Positions 10,001 through 32,721 of a stretch of 36,560 nucleotides of DNA are shown here, one piece after another. The position numbers were made by a program, and so were the translations under genes. The stretch's first letter is position 1. The number at the start of each line of letters is the position of its first letter. The DNA comes from Planctomycetota bacterium (GTDB lineage Bacteria; Planctomycetota; MHYJ01; WSZJ01). The notes under the pieces were generated by a model. It made no database searches. It worked only from the letters and a program-made list of their open reading frames with translations, and had not been told where the DNA came from. The DNA is taken from the NCBI GenBank assembly GCA_016190145.1, contig JACPRD010000091.1:1-36560 (forward strand). Direction: 5' to 3'.

Positions 10001-10028
10001 GCCAAACGCCGAACGCCGAACGCCGAAC
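10001..10028. repeat. Heptanucleotide tandem repeat (GCCAAAC + 3x GCCGAAC)
   Basis: Four contiguous 7-bp units, three of them identical, lie between the divergent PDZ operon and rlmN. They end 13 bp before a TACAAT hexamer (10042-10047) that could serve as a -10 box for rlmN. No convincing -35 box is seen, and the array occupies that position. Confidence 0.88.
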
Positions 10029-10084
10029 CCCGCCCGGCGGCTACAATGCGCCGCCCGACAGCGCCCGCGCGCCACCTCCAACCG

Positions 10085-16855: not shown

Positions 16856-19800
16856 CTACCTCGCGGACCGCACCTTCAACGACCTCAGCGCGATCCGCCC
16901 CTTCCCCCACTCGAGCAGCATCGGCCCCGGACCGCGCTTCAATTTTCGCTCCTCGACGATCGTCGTCCGGTCCAGACGCGCCTCCAGGACGTCGCCGCGG
17001 ATGCGCAGCATGAGCACGCGGTTGCTGCCCGGGATCACGTGGTCGAAGACGGTTTCGCCACGGAGCGTGATGCGGAGGGGCGTGGGCTCCCAGGCGCCCG
17101 CGTAGATCCGCCACGTCCCGTCGCCGCACGGGGCGACGGACTCGAGCGAGACGGGGGCGACGCCGGTCAGCACGCGATCCTCGATCGCCAGTCCTTTCAA
17201 CCGAAACCCCGCCGCCTCGGCCCCCGCGAGCAGCTCCCTCCACTCCTCCTCGGCCGGCGCCGACTTGATTTCCTCGAGAACGACGTCGCGGAACGAGACG
17301 GAGGCGTCCTGGACGGTGATGCGGAGCCCGCCGGCCGCGGGGTCGTCGGGCCATCCGTACGGCAGAAGCGGGAGCTGGCCGTCCACCATGGCGGTGACGG
17401 CGGATTCGAGCGCGACGACTTCGAGGTCGCGCCACTTTCCCGGGAGGTCGCCGGGAAGGGCGATCTGGATCGGGTTGCCGGCCGTGCGGATGTCGACGCC
17501 GGAGTTGCGGCCGGACTCGAACCGGAAGCGGAGGCGGAGGCGGAAATTGCGCCAGCGTTCGTTGATGAAGAGTTCGGCGACGGGGCGATCGCCGGACGCG
17601 GTGCCGCGGAGGGCGCCGTCCGAGGTGATCCAGAGGGCGCGATCGGGGGTCTGGAAGCGGCCGGCGGTGGCGCCGTCGGTGAGGGGCTGGGGCTTGTCGA
17701 GGGCGAGGCCGCGGCCGACGCGGGCGAGAAGGGCCTGGCGCGCGCGCCATTCGTCGGCCCAGGCCTTAGGGGGCTGGCCGTTCACGACGACGTTGTCGAT
17801 CCTGACGGTCGTGCCGCGGTCGGTAAAGAAACTCGGCGGCGAGGTGAAGACGGGGTCTTCGGCAGGAACGGACAGGACTTCCTCGCCGTCGAGGATCACG
17901 GCGACCTTGCCGCCGGCGATGCGGAGGACGGCGTGCATCATCCGGCCCGGCTCCGGCAGGGGGCGGGGCTTCGCGGGGGACTGGCTGAAGCAGGAGAACT
18001 CGATGCGCGCGGCGCCCGGCCGGTGCACGAACCGGTAGCCTCCGGCGGCGATGCCGAATCCCGCGGGCTCTCCTTCGAGGAGCGTGAAGTCGGCGCGGAT
18101 TTCGACGTCGCCGCGCAGGGGGGCGTTGAGCTCGAGCGTGCCGTCGCGCAGCCAGATCGCGCCGTCCTCCAGGCGCAGTCCCTGCCGGCCCGCGCTGCCG
18201 CCGCCCGCGTGCAGTTCGGCGCGCCAGTCGCGGAGCTGCGCCGGGGCGGAGAAGTCCCAGGTCATGAAGAATCCGAGTCCCCAGCGGCGGACGGGGACTG
18301 CGAACGGCTCGCCCTCAACCGTTTCCGCGGCCTGGAACTCCAGTTCGGAAAGCTCGGCCGCTGCGGCGCGCCACGCGGGACTCTCCGCGAATTTCGCGCG
18401 CTGCGCCAGCCCCTCCCGGCATTTCCTCCAGTCCTTCCGGCGCGCCGCTTCGAGGAGCGACGCGAGCGCCCGGCGCGCCTCCGTCTCGGCGGCGAGCGCG
18501 GAAATCCGGTCCGCCAGCGCGTCGAGCTCCGCCCGGCGCGGCGACTCCGCCCACGCCCGCCGGGCGGCCGCTTCCCGCCCGCAGAACAGGCTCAGCAGCC
18601 CCAGGCCCACGGGTTTCGCGCCTCCGCCCCGCACGAACCTCAGCAGGTCGTCCGCCGGCAGCTCTGCGTACCGGAGCTGCGCCTCCCCTCCCCCGGCGAG
18701 CGCGAGCCGGATGCGCTGCTCCGTCGCGCCCTCGATCTTCACCTTGCCGATCGGAAGGTCCAGCTCCTCGCCCCTCGACTTCTCCGCCCCGGCGGCCGCG
18801 CACGCGAGCGCCGCTTCCGCTTCGGAAATCAGCCCCTCCCAGATCTCCAGATCCCCGGACAGCGACGGCGCTTCCTGCCGCACCCGCGCCACCGCCTGCC
18901 GCGCCGCGGCGAAATCCAGCGACGTCCCGTACTCGAGGATTTCCGCGAGGAGGGGGTCGAGGAGGTGAAGTGCCGCCGCGCGGTCGCGGTCGAGCTGGAC
19001 CTGGGCGAGGCGGCGTTTTTCGGCGGCGGCGAGCATCGCGAGGTCGGGGAGGTCCATCGCGAGGACGGCGTCGAAGCACCGGAGGGCGTCGGCGATTTTT
19101 CCCTCCGACTCGAGCCGCGCCGCTTCGGTGCGCGCGCGGTCGAACGCGGCCTGCGCATCGAAGCGGATGGACGCGGCGAGATCGGCGGCCCGCTTGCGGT
19201 ACTGGGGAGTCTCCGCCTTCCAGGCCTCGACCTCGCGGAGCGCCGCGCCGAGCGTGCCGGCCCGGCGGAGCGGCGCTATCCGCCCGGCGAGCACTTCCCA
19301 GCCCGCTTCGTCCGCCAGCACTCCGCGACTCGTCTCGTCCGGCGCCTTCACCGGAGGCTGTTCCGGTGGTTTTTCCGGCGGCTTCGCTGGCGGGTTCTCG
19401 ACCGGCTTCTCTTCGGGCGGCGCCCGTCCTTCCATGCGCGCCGCGATCGCCGCTTCCAGAGCCCGCCGCTTTTCGGGATCGGTCTCGCGCGCGAGCTCGT
19501 CGCGAAGGGCCGCGAGTTCCGCCTTCATGCGCCGCTGCTGGTCCACGAAATACCCGACGAGCCCGAGGACGGCGAGCGCCGCGACGCCGGCGCCGACCCA
19601 GAGGAGGCGGCGGCGGATCGCCTTCACGGCGCGCGAACCCAGTCCCGCGGCCTTCGCCTCGATCGACTGCCCGGCGACCCAGCGTTCGATGTCGGCCGCG
19701 AGCGCCCCCGCCGTCGCGTACCGGCGCGAGGGATCCTTTTCGAGGCACTTGAGGCACACGACCTCGAGGTCCCGCGGCACGCCCGCCGACTTCCTCGACG

Positions 19801-20584
19801 GCGCCTCCGGCTCGTCCTCCACCACCGCCTTCATCGTCGACATCATGTCCGCCCGCGCGAACGGCGTGTGCCCTGTGAGCCCTTCGTAGATCACGGCGCC
19901 CAGCGAAAACACGTCGCTCCGGGCGTCGATCGCCGCGGATTCGCCCCGCGCCTGTTCGGGGGACATGTAGAACGGCGTCCCCATGACCATCCCCGACATC
20001 GTGAGCTTCGAAGCCCCCGCCTGCTCGATGGCGAGCCCGAAGTCCATGAGGAAGGCCGTGCCGTCCGGCGCGACGATGACGTTCGAGGGCTTGATGTCCC
20101 GGTGAAACACCCCCACGCCGTGCGCGTAGTCGAGCGCCCCGGCCACGGCGCCCGCGATCTGCATGAACTGCGGCGTCGTCACCCGCCGCTTCTTGATCAG
20201 CACGTCCAACCCCGTTCCTTCGATCAGGTCCATCGTGAACCACGCGCGCGTCCCGTGCTCGCCCAGCTCGTGGACCGCGACGATGTGGGGGTGGCGGAGG
20301 CGCGAAGCGAGGCGCGCTTCGCGCAGAAATCTCTTGCGCATGTTGTCGTTCGCCTCGGGTGAGAGCATCTTGACGGCGACGACGCGCTGGAGATCGTCCT
20401 GCCAGGCGCGGTACACCACGCCCATCCCGCCCCGCCCGATCTCGTTCAGAATGACCAGCTTGCCGACCGACCGGCCCGGTTTCTTCCGCGCGGCTTCGAC
20501 CTCGGCATGCAGATCTGCCGTCGCCGTCCCCGGCCTCGGGGTCCGGCCCGATGATGATGTCCCTCCCGGGTGCCCACCGGTCAC
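16856..20584 (-). CDS. Large membrane-anchored Ser/Thr protein kinase with DUF1080-like C-terminal half
   Basis: The 1242-residue product starts with a Gly/Thr/Ser-rich lead, then a PknB-type kinase (about 40-305). This has glycine loop GRGGMGVVY (50-58), Lys72 in VAVKML, catalytic HRDIKPSN (Asp163), DFG (181-183) and the SPEQARG activation segment, so all key residues are present. One membrane helix lies at about 328-347, followed by a coiled coil and a Pro-rich stretch with PPEKPPEQPP. The outer part is long and has TPR-like helices, then lectin-like/DUF1080 beta sandwiches with ESGRNSGVDIRT. The start is the GTG at 20584 because GGGAGG lies seven bases upstream; the longer open frame runs into repeat elements. 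The cytoplasmic kinase and outward sugar-binding-like half suggest an envelope sensor, as is common in planctomycetes. The substrate is unknown. Confidence 0.88.
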   Translation of the reverse strand: MTGGHPGGTSSSGRTPRPGTATADLHAEVEAARKKPGRSVGKLVILNEIGRGGMGVVYRAWQDDLQRVVAVKMLSPEANDNMRKRFLREARLASRLRHPHIVAVHELGEHGTRAWFTMDLIEGTGLDVLIKKRRVTTPQFMQIAGAVAGALDYAHGVGVFHRDIKPSNVIVAPDGTAFLMDFGLAIEQAGASKLTMSGMVMGTPFYMSPEQARGESAAIDARSDVFSLGAVIYEGLTGHTPFARADMMSTMKAVVEDEPEAPSRKSAGVPRDLEVVCLKCLEKDPSRRYATAGALAADIERWVAGQSIEAKAAGLGSRAVKAIRRRLLWVGAGVAALAVLGLVGYFVDQQRRMKAELAALRDELARETDPEKRRALEAAIAARMEGRAPPEEKPVENPPAKPPEKPPEQPPVKAPDETSRGVLADEAGWEVLAGRIAPLRRAGTLGAALREVEAWKAETPQYRKRAADLAASIRFDAQAAFDRARTEAARLESEGKIADALRCFDAVLAMDLPDLAMLAAAEKRRLAQVQLDRDRAAALHLLDPLLAEILEYGTSLDFAAARQAVARVRQEAPSLSGDLEIWEGLISEAEAALACAAAGAEKSRGEELDLPIGKVKIEGATEQRIRLALAGGGEAQLRYAELPADDLLRFVRGGGAKPVGLGLLSLFCGREAAARRAWAESPRRAELDALADRISALAAETEARRALASLLEAARRKDWRKCREGLAQRAKFAESPAWRAAAAELSELEFQAAETVEGEPFAVPVRRWGLGFFMTWDFSAPAQLRDWRAELHAGGGSAGRQGLRLEDGAIWLRDGTLELNAPLRGDVEIRADFTLLEGEPAGFGIAAGGYRFVHRPGAARIEFSCFSQSPAKPRPLPEPGRMMHAVLRIAGGKVAVILDGEEVLSVPAEDPVFTSPPSFFTDRGTTVRIDNVVVNGQPPKAWADEWRARQALLARVGRGLALDKPQPLTDGATAGRFQTPDRALWITSDGALRGTASGDRPVAELFINERWRNFRLRLRFRFESGRNSGVDIRTAGNPIQIALPGDLPGKWRDLEVVALESAVTAMVDGQLPLLPYGWPDDPAAGGLRITVQDASVSFRDVVLEEIKSAPAEEEWRELLAGAEAAGFRLKGLAIEDRVLTGVAPVSLESVAPCGDGTWRIYAGAWEPTPLRITLRGETVFDHVIPGSNRVLMLRIRGDVLEARLDRTTIVEERKLKRGPGPMLLEWGKGRIALRSLKVRSAR

Positions 20585-20603
20585 GCTCGCGCCTCCCGGG
20601 AGA
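20585..20603 (-). promoter_or_regulatory. Ribosome binding site that fixes the GTG start of the large kinase
   Basis: GGGAGG lies seven bases upstream of the GTG at 20584. It decides the start, because the open frame continues for 58 more codons into a REP-like element and contains several other Met codons with no ribosome site. Confidence 0.8.
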
Positions 20604-20667
20604 ATGTACTGCGCAAGGAGGTGAGGGCGAAGGGGTATTGGGTGTCGGAAGGCGGGAAGCCGGTAAA

Positions 20668-20818
20668 GCCAGCCATAAGCCATAAGCGGCGCGCTGCGCG
20701 CGCCACATAGTGCGGAGTGGACTTCAGTGTTCCCGGGCTGTCGGGAATTCGGGAACACTGAAGTCCGCTCCGACTGCTTGTGGCGCGCGCAGCGCGCCGC
20801 TTATGGCTTATGGCTGGC
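20668..20818. repeat. Inverted pair of a REP-like element (about 68-bp arms, 14-bp centre)
   Basis: Arm 20668-20735 is repeated inverted at 20750-20818 with only a few mismatches, all in the middle. Each arm starts with GCCATAA twice. A perfect 7-bp hairpin follows, GGCGCGC with a 3-nt loop (20688-20704 and 20782-20798), then a GGACTTCAGTGTTCCCG end next to the centre. The whole could fold as one long stem. It lies between the stop of the stress-protein gene and the start of the large kinase, both minus strand, so it could also act as a transcription barrier. A second pair occurs at 25033-25303. Confidence 0.92.
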
Positions 20819-20846
20819 CTTACTGTGTTCCAGGCCCTCCGCCCCC

Positions 20847-21710
20847 CTACTTCCTGCTGCGCACAACCAGCATCGGAACCACGGACGCCCTCAGCACCTT
20901 CTCCGTCACGCTGCCCATCACCCACCGCGACACGCCCGACCGGCCGTGCGTCGTCATCGCGATCAGGTCGGCGCCGTGCCGCTTCGCCGCGTCCAGGATT
21001 TCCGCCGCCGGATCGCCCAGGCGGACCACCGGATCCACCGGGATCGCGGCTTCGCCGAAGTCCTTCACCGCGATGCGGACCAGGGGCTCGCCCGCGCCCT
21101 TCTTCTTCGATCCCTCGCTCTCCGGATCCACGATGCCCAGCACCATCACGCTCGCGCCGTAGGCCTTCGCGAGCTCCTTCGCGTGCGGAATCACCTGGAG
21201 CGAGTTCTCGCTGCCGTCGACGGGAACCAGGATCTTCTTGAACGGGATTTCCTGGACCGGCGCCCGCCTGGCTTTTGCGCCCACTTCCTTGAAACTCCGC
21301 ACGATCAGCACCGGCACCGGGCTCGCCCGCAGCACTTTCTCGGCCACGCTCCCGAATACGAACCGCGACATCCCGGAACGCCCGTGCGTGGCCATCGCGA
21401 TCAGCGTCGCCTTCTCCTGCTCGGCCACGTCCAGGATCGTCCCGGCCTCGGTCCCGACCTTCACGATCCCGCGCGCGCGGACCCCTTCCTTCACCATCTG
21501 GCGCGTCAGACTCGCAATGTACTTCTCAGCCTCCTGCTTCAGGCTCGCAATGAGGTCGCCGTACTCGAGACCGGCCTGGGCGGGGATGGTCGCGGCCTGG
21601 AAGAGGATGACGTCGCCGTCCTTGCGGCGGAGGAGGCGGCAGACCTGTCCCATGATGGCTTCGGCGATTTCCGAGCCGTCGAGGGGAATGAGGATGCGGT
21701 CGAAGAGCAT
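20847..21710 (-). CDS. Tandem-domain universal stress protein (UspA family) A
   Basis: The 287-residue protein is made of two Usp domains. Domain 1 (about 1-145) opens with FDRILIPLDGSEIAE and has the nucleotide-binding loop THGRSGMSRFVFGS. Domain 2 (about 150-287) opens with KKILVPVDGSENSL and has THGRSGVSRWVMGS. Both loops keep the HG-x9-GS pattern of ATP-binding members. Usp proteins bind ATP and help survival under starvation, oxidants or respiratory stress. GGAGGA precedes the ATG and spans the stop of the CBS gene, only two bases away, so the two are a coupled operon. It is one of four such double-domain genes here. Confidence 0.93.
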   Translation of the reverse strand: MLFDRILIPLDGSEIAEAIMGQVCRLLRRKDGDVILFQAATIPAQAGLEYGDLIASLKQEAEKYIASLTRQMVKEGVRARGIVKVGTEAGTILDVAEQEKATLIAMATHGRSGMSRFVFGSVAEKVLRASPVPVLIVRSFKEVGAKARRAPVQEIPFKKILVPVDGSENSLQVIPHAKELAKAYGASVMVLGIVDPESEGSKKKGAGEPLVRIAVKDFGEAAIPVDPVVRLGDPAAEILDAAKRHGADLIAMTTHGRSGVSRWVMGSVTEKVLRASVVPMLVVRSRK

Positions 21711-21712
21711 GG

Positions 21713-22294
21713 CTAGTCCTCCTTGCTGGGGACGGTTGCTTCGGGGAGCCGGCCGCGCACGCGGACGACGACGGAGAAACGGCGCGAGCGGGCGTTGTGA
21801 ACGGTGGCGATGGAGCGGACGCGCAGGCGGCCGATGCGTCGGCGGACGGCGTCGAGGAGATCCTCATGGTCGGGGATGTCCAGCGCGATGCGCGGGCCGG
21901 TTTCGGAGAAGCCCATCATGGAACAGAGGGCCTGGAAGAGGTCCGACTCGGTGAGGATGCCGACGATTTTTTCGCCGTTCACAACGGGCACGCCGGAGAT
22001 CTTGTGGCGGAGCATGAGCTGGGAGACGCTTTCGAGCGTGTCCATCGGGCTGACGGTGAGGGGGCCGGGCGTCATGAACTCCTCGACCGTGCGCCGGCTG
22101 TGCGCCGCGGCGCGTCCGTGCCGGCCGAGCGCGGATTCGAGGTCGCTGCGTGTGACGATGCCGACGAGGGCGCCGGACTGCACGACCGGGAGCCGGCGGA
22201 TGCGGTGTTTTTCCATGAAGTCGAGAGCCGTCTGGGCGCGGATTCCGGGGGCGATGACCACGGGGGGGGAGGACATCCAGTTCTTGACGAGCAT
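21713..22294 (-). CDS. CBS-pair protein with ACT-like C-terminus
   Basis: The 193-residue protein has two CBS motifs (about 1-60 and 68-125), with VKNWMSSPPVVIAPG, IRRLPVVQSGALVGIVTRSDL, EEFMTPGPLTVSP and ISGVPVVNGEKIVGILTESDLF. The last 65 residues (ALDIPDHEDLLDAVRRRIGRLRV and RRFSVVVRVRG) look like an ACT-type beta-alpha-beta domain. CBS pairs bind adenine nucleotides such as AMP, ATP or SAM and work as energy sensors. It is the first gene of an operon with stress protein A, and GGAG lies upstream of its ATG. A regulatory partner role for the Usp protein is inferred from coupling. Confidence 0.88.
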   Translation of the reverse strand: MLVKNWMSSPPVVIAPGIRAQTALDFMEKHRIRRLPVVQSGALVGIVTRSDLESALGRHGRAAAHSRRTVEEFMTPGPLTVSPMDTLESVSQLMLRHKISGVPVVNGEKIVGILTESDLFQALCSMMGFSETGPRIALDIPDHEDLLDAVRRRIGRLRVRSIATVHNARSRRFSVVVRVRGRLPEATVPSKED

Positions 22295-22539
22295 CGGCGT
22301 ATCTCCAAGAGGTGAAGCGGTCTAGCGCACGCGGCGTGCCGTTTTCAGGAAGGGGAGAAGCTGCTGGATGGCGTGACAGAATGCGGAAAAATTACGCGAT
22401 GCTGAGCAATTCTGCGCGCCTTTTCCTCCCGAATTTTCGGTTTGACTCCCGCCTCCCACGAGAATCCCCATGTCAGCGGTGGCCCTTCATTTGCGATTCA
22501 CCTGCTCCACTTCCGCATCCTCCATCCGGAGACCCCCCT

Positions 22540-23460
22540 ATGTATCGATCCATCCTCGTGCCCTGCGACGGCTCCAGCCTCTCCGAGTACGCCATCCCCT
22601 TCGCCGTCGAAATCGCCCGCCGCGACAGGGGCTCCGTCACCCTCCTCAGGGCGCTTCCCGACAGTCTCCTCGTCACCGATCTCCCGACCTCCGTGCAGGC
22701 CAGCTCGCGCCGCATCGCCGAGACGGAGATGGGGCAGCTCAAGAAAGCCTTCGAGTCGTCCGAGGTGCCGGTTTCCGTCCGGATGCGCATCGGGTTTCCG
22801 GTGGAGGAGATCCTGCTGGGCGCGGCGACGAGCGACCTGATTGTCATGACCACGCACGGCAGGGGAGGCATCAATCGCTGGGTCATGGGAAGCGTGGCCG
22901 ACAAGGCGATCCGCCTCTCCCCGGTACCCGTCCTCGCGATCCACCCGCCCGAAAAACGGACACCCGCCATGGCGGAGGCAGCGGCTCTTCGTATGTTCCG
23001 CGACGTCTGCGTCCCGCTCGACGGCTCGCCGCTCGCCGAGCGCTCGCTCGCCGAGCTCGGGCAGTTTGCGGGCGGCGAGGCGCGCATCAACCTCGTCCGG
23101 ACGGTCGCGAAGGACGCGAGCGGCGCGGCCGAGGATCTCGCGGACAACTACCTGCAGGACGCGGCGTCGAAACTCGAGGCGCGCGGCGTGCGGGTGACGC
23201 GATCGGTGCAGAAGGGCGACAACGCGGCCGAGGAAATCGCAAAATACGCGATCAAGACCGGCTGCGGACTCATCGTGATGACGACCCACGGCGCGAGCGG
23301 CATCACCCGCTGGATGCTGGGCGGCGTGACCGACAAGGTGGTGCGCCGCGGCCCGACGCCGGTGCTCGCCATCCGGGCGAGCCGGAAACTGTGGAGAGGC
23401 GGGAAGAGGCCGCTCGCGGCGGCGCCTGCGAAGAAGAAGAAATCCACTATCATCATCTGA
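22540..23460 (+). CDS. Tandem-domain universal stress protein (UspA family) B
   Basis: The 306-residue protein has two Usp domains. Domain 1 opens with YRSILVPCDGSSLSEYAIPF and has the loop THGRGGINRWVMGS, fully conserved. Domain 2 opens with FRDVCVPLDGSPLAERS and has THGASGITRWMLGG, where the usual final Ser is Gly, so its nucleotide binding may be altered. A basic tail with a Lys run (PAKKKKS) ends the protein and is not usual for the family. The gene is divergent from the CBS/Usp A operon across a 245-bp gap. GGAGA lies upstream of the ATG at 22540; the longer open frame upstream has no domain content. Confidence 0.92.
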   Translation: MYRSILVPCDGSSLSEYAIPFAVEIARRDRGSVTLLRALPDSLLVTDLPTSVQASSRRIAETEMGQLKKAFESSEVPVSVRMRIGFPVEEILLGAATSDLIVMTTHGRGGINRWVMGSVADKAIRLSPVPVLAIHPPEKRTPAMAEAAALRMFRDVCVPLDGSPLAERSLAELGQFAGGEARINLVRTVAKDASGAAEDLADNYLQDAASKLEARGVRVTRSVQKGDNAAEEIAKYAIKTGCGLIVMTTHGASGITRWMLGGVTDKVVRRGPTPVLAIRASRKLWRGGKRPLAAAPAKKKKSTIII

Positions 23461-23461
23461 G

Positions 23462-23552
23462 AGCGTGAGAAAAATTGGATCTCCGGCGCGGTCGGACCTC
23501 GCTCGCTTCGCTCGCTCGCCCCGACCGCTCCTGCGATCGAGTTCTCTCACGC
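23462..23552. repeat. Nested inverted repeats between two stress-protein genes
   Basis: AGCGTGAGA (23462-23470) pairs with TCTCACGCT (23544-23552). Inside it, GCGGTCGG (23488-23495) pairs with CCGACCGC (23521-23528). The centre is a run of CTCGCTCGC-type repeats around a TTCG. The structure ends about ten bases before the AAGGAG ribosome site of the next gene and starts right after the stop of the previous one. It may be a terminator/leader or an intergenic repeat element. Confidence 0.7.
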
Positions 23553-23572
23553 TGACTCTAAGGAGTCCTTCG

Positions 23573-24430
23573 ATGCTCGAACGGATCCTGGTCCCCCTCG
23601 ACGGTTCTCCCGCGGGCGCGCGCATCCTCGAAGTCATCCGCCCGCTCGCCCGGCGCGCGCACGGAAAGGTCGTGCTCTTCCATGCCGCCGAACCCCCTCT
23701 CGCCGCGGGCATGAACAGCGGCTTCGTCGGGCAGGACATCCGGCTGGACGCGGAGAAGTATCTGGAGGGGCTGGTGCGCGAGATCCAGCCCCAGGGGTTT
23801 CACATGGAGATCCTGGTCCGCGTCGGCCCCGCGGCCGGGGTGATCCTGGACGGAATCAAGGAGACGAAGGCGACGATGGTGGCGATGGCGACGCACGGCC
23901 GCACCGGGCTGGCGCGACTGGCGTTCGGAAGCGTCGCGGAGCAGGTGCTTCACGCGAGCGACGTGCCCGTGCTCATGCTCCGTTCCGTCGAGGGGACTCC
24001 GCCGCACGGCGGGAGCGACAAGAACGTCTTCGCGCAGGTGCTGGTGCCCGTGGACGGCAGCGATCTCGCGCTCGGCGTGGCTCCGCGGGTCGCCGTGATC
24101 GCGAAAGCCTGCGGGTCGCGGGTGATCCTGATCCACGTGCTGCCGCCCGAACCGGCGCGCAGCGAGTCCCTCGAGCACGCCGATGCGATCTTCGCGGCGG
24201 CGAAGAAGTCGTTCGGGGCGGCGGGGGTGAAGGTGGAAGACACGATGATCCGGACGGGCGACGCCGCGTCCGAGATCCTGGACGCGTGCCGCCAACGCCC
24301 CATCGCGGCGATCGCGATGTCCTCCCACGGGCGCTCCGGCCTGGCGCGGCTGGTGATGGGAAGCGTGGCGGAGAGCGTGGTGCGCGGCTCGTGGCTGCCG
24401 GTGCTGGTGGCCCGCTCCTTCAGGAAATAG
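23573..24430 (+). CDS. Tandem-domain universal stress protein (UspA family) C
   Basis: The 285-residue protein has two Usp domains, opening with LERILVPLDGSPAGAR and FAQVLVPVDGSDLALG. Both nucleotide loops are conserved (THGRTGLARLAFGS and SHGRSGLARLVMGS). A clear AAGGAG lies upstream of the ATG at 23573. It follows stress protein B by 112 bp on the same strand, but the nested inverted repeats in between may separate or modulate transcription. Its 3' end overlaps the opposing methyltransferase gene by 11 bases. The role would be ATP-dependent stress protection in the cytosol; no specific partner is visible. Confidence 0.93.
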   Translation: MLERILVPLDGSPAGARILEVIRPLARRAHGKVVLFHAAEPPLAAGMNSGFVGQDIRLDAEKYLEGLVREIQPQGFHMEILVRVGPAAGVILDGIKETKATMVAMATHGRTGLARLAFGSVAEQVLHASDVPVLMLRSVEGTPPHGGSDKNVFAQVLVPVDGSDLALGVAPRVAVIAKACGSRVILIHVLPPEPARSESLEHADAIFAAAKKSFGAAGVKVEDTMIRTGDAASEILDACRQRPIAAIAMSSHGRSGLARLVMGSVAESVVRGSWLPVLVARSFRK

Positions 24431-24998
24431 GCTTCGTGCCCTCGGCGACATAACGCAGTGCGTCAATGCGCTCGGTGGTCGCCGCGAGCCCGGCATGCTC
24501 GAGCCCTCCGGCGAGTTCGCCGGGTCGCCAGAACCGGCAGGGCTGTCGCCTCCACCGCGCGACCCGCGCCAGGAACCGCCCGGCGCCGCTTCCCCCGTCG
24601 AATTCCACCGCGAGGACCAATCCTCCCGGGCGGAGGCAGCGCTTCCACTCCGCGAGCGTTCCTTCCGCCGCCGGCACATGGTGGAGCACGTCTACGGAAA
24701 GGATCGCGTCGAATGAGGCATCGGGGAAGGGGAGGGGGCCTCGCTCCGGGATCTGGATCGGGCGGATCCGGGGCGACTTCGTCACCCGCGCCAGCGATTC
24801 CGAGTCGACATCCGCGACGGTCCATGTCCCCTCCAGACCCGGCGCAAGTGCCGCCGCCACGCGGCCGGTGCCGCCGCCGAAATCCAGCACGTCCCGGAGC
24901 GGCGCGCGCGCCGCGAGGCGCGCCCGGAGGACGGACAGGACGTCGCCGCGCCGGTGGACCGTGTAGTAGAGCCGTTCGACGAGGCCGAGAAGGGTCAT
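24420..24998 (-). CDS. Class I SAM-dependent methyltransferase
   Basis: The 192-residue protein fits the small Methyltransf_11/UbiE-like group. Motif I reads VLDFGGGTGRVAAAL (about residues 36-50). Asp-rich motif II lies in WTVADVDSESL. FDAILSVDVLHHVP (about 95-110) and LRPGGLVLAVEFDG are the post-I and motif III regions. The substrate is not predictable; lipid, quinone or small-molecule targets are all possible. The ATG at 24998 is preferred because the frame upstream runs into a copy of the REP-like element. It has no operon partner. The 3' end overlaps stress protein C tail to tail. Confidence 0.85.
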   Translation of the reverse strand: MTLLGLVERLYYTVHRRGDVLSVLRARLAARAPLRDVLDFGGGTGRVAAALAPGLEGTWTVADVDSESLARVTKSPRIRPIQIPERGPLPFPDASFDAILSVDVLHHVPAAEGTLAEWKRCLRPGGLVLAVEFDGGSGAGRFLARVARWRRQPCRFWRPGELAGGLEHAGLAATTERIDALRYVAEGTKPIS

Positions 24999-25032
24999 GG
25001 GTGGATCGTGGGGCCGCCAGCCTCCGGAGGGC

Positions 25033-25303
25033 AAGCCATAAGCCATAAGCGGCGCGCTTCGCGCGCCACATCGGGCGCCGTGGACTTCAGCCTGCTGAAG
25101 CCCTCGCCGTTCAATGCTCTTGGTGCTGTCTCCTTTCTCTCCAAGGCAGCAGTTCCGCCAGGTCGGACCGCCACGACCTGTCAGCGATGAACGGCGATAA
25201 GAAAGACCTTGGAACAGCGATAAAGGAGGATCAAAGGCGATGGGACAATCGCCGCATCCGTCCGCTGAAGTCCGCCGCTTATAGCTTATGGCTTATGGCT
25301 GCC
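25033..25303. repeat. Second pair of the REP-like element, one arm partly deleted, with spacer
   Basis: This fills most of the 322-bp gap between the methyltransferase and CBS genes. The left arm (25033-25100) matches the first locus: GCCATAA twice, hairpin GGCGCGC-TTC-GCGCGCC (25051-25067), then GTGGACTTCAG and a short CTTCAG/CTGAAG hairpin. The right arm (about 25258-25303) is inverted, has three TTATGGC-type heptamers and the GACTTCAG end, but lacks the GC-rich hairpin. The 150 bp between the arms has lower GC and shows no gene. Confidence 0.85.
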
Positions 25304-25320
25304 TTGCCTGCCTGTCCGCT

Positions 25321-25773
25321 TCACGCCTTCCTCCCCCCCCCACCTCTCGGCATCCTCATCAACCCCTGTCCCTTCCTCGGCGCCGCAGGCAGCAGATCTG
25401 GCCCCAGCAGGTCGAGCGGCGTCACCACCCCCGCCAACTGCCCGTCCGCCCCCGCCACGAACACCCGGTGGACCTTGTTCCGCCGCATCGTCTCCACCAC
25501 CTCCGAGGTCGTGGCCTCCGGAGACACCGTCACCACGCCCGCCGTCATGAACTCACGCACCCGGAAGTCGCCCCGCGTGCTCAGAACGTATGCCGCCAGG
25601 TCGCTCAGAGTGAAGACCCCCGCCGGCTTCCCCCGGCCGTCCACCACCGGCGCGCCGCTCACGCCTCCCTTGCGAAGCGCGTCCGCCGCTTCCCAGATCG
25701 TCGCATCCAGCCCCACCGTCTTCACCGGCGAGGACATCACCTCGCCCGCCGTCCGTTCCTTTTCCGCGGCCAT
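25321..25773 (-). CDS. CBS-pair domain protein
   Basis: The 150-residue protein is little more than two CBS motifs. They read AGEVMSSPVKTVGLDATIWE, GVSGAPVVDGRGKPAGVFTLSDL, VREFMTAGVVTVSPEAT and VHRVFVAGADGQLAGVVTPLDLL. A basic Gly-rich end (MPRGGGGRKA) follows. CBS pairs sense adenosyl ligands. The ATG at 25773 is chosen because GGAGGAGAGG is just upstream, and it lies 11 bp after the groEL stop, so the two are almost surely one operon. A CBS partner for a chaperonin is unusual and could link chaperonin work to energy state, but that is inference. Confidence 0.88.
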   Translation of the reverse strand: MAAEKERTAGEVMSSPVKTVGLDATIWEAADALRKGGVSGAPVVDGRGKPAGVFTLSDLAAYVLSTRGDFRVREFMTAGVVTVSPEATTSEVVETMRRNKVHRVFVAGADGQLAGVVTPLDLLGPDLLPAAPRKGQGLMRMPRGGGGRKA

Positions 25774-32676: not shown

Positions 32677-32721
32677 GCCACTGGTCACTGGCCACTGGTC
32701 ACTGGCCACTGGCCACTGGCC
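32677..32721. repeat. Heptanucleotide tandem repeat (GCCACTG/GTCACTG)x6
   Basis: Six contiguous 7-bp units alternate between GCCACTG and GTCACTG, followed by a partial seventh unit. They sit seven bases from the stop codon of the TorD-like gene and upstream of the histidine kinase gene, at the 3' boundary of the nitrite oxidoreductase operon. It is the longest 7-bp array in the window. Confidence 0.93.

Follow-up and report, generated by a model that had tools for sequence, protein, structure and literature searches.

A REPIN-like, probably mobile family of intergenic palindromes with heptad arms in a Planctomycetota bacterium

The palindrome at positions 20668-20818 of the window (the whole 36,560-nucleotide stretch analysed here, contig C52 of a 5.35-Mb Planctomycetota assembly that is 85% complete) belongs to a REPIN-like family of intergenic palindromes that is probably mobile. 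The reading we favour, with a probability of roughly 60%, is that of a REPIN- or MITE-like palindrome, dispersed and non-autonomous, which some enzyme moves in trans. What sets the family apart is the tetraheptad design of its arms and a plan that is common to several families in one genome; the novelty lies in the heptad arms.

A preliminary description made from the letters alone had recognised a long inverted repeat with arms of about 68 bp around a 14-bp centre, with nested GC-rich hairpins and heptamer ends, and this geometry is confirmed (Table 1). In an end-to-end alignment the arms (20668-20735, 68 bp, and 20750-20818, 69 bp) differ by mismatches in two columns and by two small gaps; an inverted repeat search gave 92% for a stretch of 53 bp and 96% for one of 23 bp, the inner arms being 14 nt apart. 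Folded as single-stranded DNA, the element reaches -95.1 kcal/mol against -33.8 ± 3.0 kcal/mol for dinucleotide shuffles (z -20.2). From the outside inwards each arm comprises GCCA, two GCCATAA heptads, the GGCGCGC-TGC-GCGCGCC hairpin, a spacer and GGACTTCAGTGTTCCCG. The heptamer of the preliminary description is GCCATAA, with the correction that this copy keeps two intact heptads per arm where the family usually has four. The pattern GCCATAAGCNATAAGC matches six times in the window and not at all in 100 shuffles. A known RNA family was rejected as an identification, as a scan of 20400-25600 with Rfam covariance models gave no match.

Table 1. Positions of the two window elements, their parts and related features (window coordinates unless a locus is given).
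Feature	Position	Strand	Remark
Whole element, type A copy	20668-20818	none	115-bp core between heptads
Left heptad array	20672-20685	+	two intact GCCATAA, GCCA before them; family standard is four
Left REP-like hairpin, GGCGCGC-TGC-GCGCGCC	20688-20704	+	covariation in 24 copies
Central stem, GGACTTCAGTGTTCCCG...	20719-20766	none	around 14-nt centre
Right REP-like hairpin, mirror image	20782-20798	-	covariation in 24 copies
Right heptad array	20801-20814	-	two intact units
Universal stress protein gene	20847-21710	-	stop codon to right heptads of element, 32 bp
Second copy, long type A	25031-25303	none	230-bp core
Second copy, left heptads	25035-25048	+	
Second copy, right heptads	25279-25299	-	GCCATAA twice, GCTATAA
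Inverted short-unit pairs of G002	L260:12189-12280, L262:13093-15756, L282, L289, L292, L293		

The second window copy has a loop that includes a segment of a further palindrome family (TCGCCGTTCATC), and its right arm has lost the small hairpin; the hairpin loop that remains is TTC, compared with TGC in the first copy, in line with the earlier remark that the loop differs between loci. A large protein kinase gene (window 16856-20584, minus strand) adjoins the first element, and in all four same-genus genomes the neighbours of this gene lie next to each other, without the kinase and without the element.

The element is far from confined to the window, so that a lack of copies elsewhere, which the preliminary description named as its refutation, does not hold. 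BLAST against its own genome gave 113 matches, many of them full-length, and near-exact words of two heptamers matched 314 times, against none for a reversed-pattern control; the single and paired copies that the preliminary description had proposed to count are both present. At least 74 array loci were read with their neighbourhoods and none lies inside a gene, noncoding DNA making up 18% of the sampled contigs. Contig ends fall inside several copies (C7, C32, C86, C131, C140 and C201), as is expected of repeats. Among 39 relatives, including four same-genus genomes, the core was absent except for two matches of 28-38 bp, and the bare GCCATAA word is rare among relatives (nine one-mismatch matches in G009 and single matches in three others). 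A plasmid or phage origin was rejected: neither gave a match, and the exact pattern occurs in none of the viral contigs.

Across the family the plan, from the outside inwards, is RGSCA (the consensus just outside the array), four GCCATAA units, a 7-bp hairpin, the GGACTTCAG stem, an exchangeable centre and the mirror image of all this. Exactly four units are present in 72 of 120 arrays, two or three in 45 and more in 3. The outermost heptad hardly varies; GCCATAG takes the second position in 24 of 72, and GCTATAA the fourth, innermost one in 20 of 72. The commonest core, type A, mostly measures 114 bp (range 113-116); type A also has longer versions, of 166-320 bp, in which the outer shells persist and the centre is different, and cores of 'type B' and unclassified cores have only a GCGRCG-like tip in common. 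An alignment of the 24 short cores spans 119 columns, with a median identity of 80%. Other palindrome families are nested in the loops: CTGCGCGAAAAGTG occurs in the loop of L068 and free-standing in L060, and TCGCCGTTCATC in the loops of L063, L067, L075 and L217 and free-standing in L355 and in the same-genus genome G001. At L232:2477-2685 a heptad arm broken off within its hairpin is immediately adjoined by another element, a complete one, which suggests that the hairpin was a site of insertion or recombination.

These features bear on whether a mobile element is needed at all, since microsatellite slippage with fold-back template switching might have made arrays and palindromes locally. PMC4679880 cites reports that heptanucleotide repeats outnumber other long simple repeats in most genomes, with slippage proposed, and GCCATAA arrays of 4-23 units were found in many phyla (Chryseobacterium, Victivallales, Vibrio, Shewanella and others) by a scan without a control word. 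In such distant bacteria the arrays are mostly unpaired and often longer, and cross-phylum enrichment is not proven. We nevertheless hold local slippage to be very improbable: cores that can be aligned at a median of 80% point to a homologous family rather than to independent events, and such shared cores at dozens of loci weaken the slippage account. Four units are moreover a near-hard maximum, and this near-fixed number, with unit positions that are not equivalent and carry their own variants, is unlike a freely slipping microsatellite.

Covariation indicates which structure is kept. In the 24 aligned cores 98.5% of small-hairpin cells are paired, and double changes occur in seven cells, a value matched by none of 500 shuffles. 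In six arms the two sides of the hairpin stem have both changed, from GGCGCGC/GCGCGCC to GGCCCGC/GCGGGCC, with the old form in the opposite arm; template switching within the hairpin may also be a source of such compensatory changes. The pairing of arm with arm, on the other hand, shows no covariation (450 of 500 shuffles were as high on the measure used for the hairpins), and heptad variants do not match between the two arms, so that an arm-to-arm cruciform is unsupported as the selected structure. Because the hairpins covary arm by arm and the long pairing does not, the unit that matters would be the single arm, as in REP. From this pattern we read the unit as REP-like and the whole element as a REPIN-like inverted doublet; the two inverted REP-like units of the preliminary description are thereby upheld, by the 24 cores with both hairpins as well as by covariation at the level of the unit.

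REPINs and BIMEs (PMC3116915, PMC8266576, PMC3733652) resemble the element in their inverted pairs of small stem-loops, variable spacer, extragenic location, high copy number and single remnants, and by analogy REPINs (PMC3116915, PMC8266576) may be taken as its functional model. The inverted stem-loop pair is present in the 24 cores, and the extragenic, multicopy character in the loci described above. The element differs in that no RAYT was found, the foot is not GTAG, four heptads extend the arms and the centres are exchangeable. The foot tetranucleotide of REPINs is conserved and most often GTAG, and in published REPINs doublets are more conserved than singlets. Here 100 of 120 arms have ATAAGC as the hairpin foot, a conserved motif yet not GTAG, and the few singlet arms appear about as conserved as doublet arms, the mean identity to the 21-nt arm consensus being 20.18 for 17 singlet arms (some cut by contig ends) and 20.10 for 61 doublet arms.

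Three transposase families were searched in the 85%-complete genome. The Y1 transposase family PF01797, that of the RAYT gene which the preliminary description had suggested looking for, gave no match, while control matches appeared in five genomes; the Y2 family PF04986 gave none either, with its controls silent as well, and the IS4-type family PF01609 gave one broken match. With no Y1/RAYT gene in this assembly and no GTAG foot, the element is not a REPIN by membership, and the class of RAYT-driven REPINs was rejected for it. Of the earlier proposal of a REPIN-like mobile element, the inverted REP-like doublet, the high copy number and the strictly intergenic placement stand, and its RAYT part is unsupported. 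A genuine RAYT-driven REPIN, with its RAYT gene in sequence that the assembly lacks, would account for inverted small-hairpin doublets, extragenic location, singlets and the lack of target-site duplications, and 85% completeness leaves room for such a gene. We regard it as improbable all the same, given the silence of PF01797 and the ATAAGC foot, and several heptad families would each need explaining.

Like MITEs, the elements are short, dispersed and non-autonomous and have terminal inverted repeats; unlike them, they come with no target-site duplication, and no related transposase of the three families searched and no autonomous copy was found in the incomplete genome. No target-site duplication was seen among 42 elements, whose direct repeats add up to 4 bp, and outside the shared consensus the flanks show no complementarity to each other. 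No autonomous copy bounded by heptads occurs among the loci read, where no array pair encloses a gene-sized insert and the longest spans 464 bp. The same-genus genome G004 is without the element in the intergenic regions orthologous to two loci in L067, and the alignments, which are of diverged intergenic DNA, show absence rather than a clean insertion point. Type A cores are about 20% diverged from one another, so any burst was not recent, and recent movement is not shown by these copies.

In the non-autonomous dispersed palindrome that we favour, each arm would be a recognition unit in which four 7-bp GCCATAA sites lead into a 7-bp stem-loop, and two such units in inverted orientation would make up the element. 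A trans-acting enzyme, presumably using single-strand chemistry, would copy or move the element to intergenic sites, where no target-site duplication would result. Copies would persist mainly where they are least harmful, just past stop codons, and there they would probably be transcribed as 3'-end hairpins.

Placement relative to genes was assessed from the calls of a simple codon-usage finder, with the window genes checked by Pfam. Outer ends that face the 3' end of a gene lie at a median distance of 15 bp from it (47 of 67 within 35 bp), against 85 bp for those that face a 5' end (4 of 48 within 35 bp). Of 40 copies in codirectional gaps, 31 are closer to the 3' end of the preceding gene (p 7e-4), and elements show about twofold enrichment in convergent gaps (p 0.04). 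A heptad supplies the stop codon of a gene in 14 cases, and elements built on two other heptads, AACGAGN and CCGAACN, are 3'-proximal too. All this would also suit host-serving 3'-end RNA elements, bidirectional hairpins that end transcription or protect mRNA 3' ends, which selection would keep and recombination spread, with the all-frame stops of the heptads as a bonus. Selection against insertion near promoters, however, yields the same bias; neither window element has a U-tract or intrinsic terminator, the same-genus genomes manage without the elements, and the long arm pairing lacks covariation. As the main explanation a 3'-end function is in our view unlikely, and it may instead be a secondary role. 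A universal stop-codon cassette was considered as the purpose, as (GCCATAA)3 holds TAA in all frames, and was rejected as a general rule because AACGAGN arrays face the other way and no stops are read inwards; the GCCATAA stops would remain a side effect or a local benefit.

The tetrads of 7-bp units, the closeness to gene 3' ends and the recurrence of the same design in other heptamer families had escaped the preliminary description. In a 314-kb sample of the same genome (20 contigs, most outside the GCCATAA list, hence uninformative on GCCATAA density and otherwise unselected) 34 of 37 period-7 arrays are intergenic. In the AACGAGN, CCGAACN and TTGAATN families each arm has four or five units, and two arms face each other across a short core; 15 AACGAGN pairs, most from loci fetched for that word, are uniform in orientation. 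Triple-unit words over the whole genome matched 130 times for AACGAGN and 259 times for CCGAACN, with no control matches. CCGAACN has almost none in 57 relatives, and AACGAGN has 117 in G033, which belongs to another class of the phylum (e.g. L321, L325), and none in the 56 others, a patchy recurrence of one word. From family-specific words, several families per genome and patchy recurrence one might tentatively propose an unnamed class of small mobile palindromes ('tetraheptad'), each with its own 7-bp word four times per arm, with several families in a genome and words patchy in distant bacteria, spread by a word-specific enzyme system; we rate this as a possibility with the odds against it.

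Tandem words of these families were not found in the literature searched. The closest published case is the Xanthomonas GGGAATC repeat, which in the available part of PMC4692102 has mostly four 7-bp units, forms 70-75 convergent pairs per genome and lies in intergenic DNA close to the 3' end of the preceding gene. The elements described here likewise have 7-bp units, most commonly four, in convergent, intergenic and 3'-proximal pairs. The Xanthomonas units differ in sequence and are termed G-quadruplex repeats, and that part of the source describes neither a hairpin core nor a dispersed core family. The TAACTGA repeats of marine Beggiatoaceae (PMC4679880) are also intergenic heptamer arrays, patchy across phyla and with stops in all frames in one orientation, but they offer one inverted case only, have no core and mostly lie just upstream of start codons. 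An excess of heptamers in bacteria has been reported for years, with polymerase slippage, G-quadruplexes and translational regulation offered as explanations. If heptamer arrays are arms of dispersed REPIN-like elements, part of this excess becomes a testable question about mobile elements, and one architecture would then serve many words and several families per genome with no known enzyme.

Further arrays were noted beside these families. The AACGAGN elements are at L303, L312, L319 and L341-L360, and TCGTGCN/GCACGAN arrays occupy some loops (L305, L353, L359). The window itself has a four-unit CCGAACN array at 10002-10029 (plus strand) and, in an intergenic gap, a six-unit CCAGTGN array at 32678-32719 (minus strand); two long facing CCAGTGN arrays also occur at L303:6688-6834. 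The same-genus genome G002 contains inverted pairs of AAAAACG, AGTTGCG and AGTGGGT and of the hexamer AACTCC (Table 1). Facing pairs of octamer arrays (AGGGCGGA), the same idea as the heptads with an 8-bp unit, are found at L301:8273-8449, L311:11714-11895 and L307:10710-10821.
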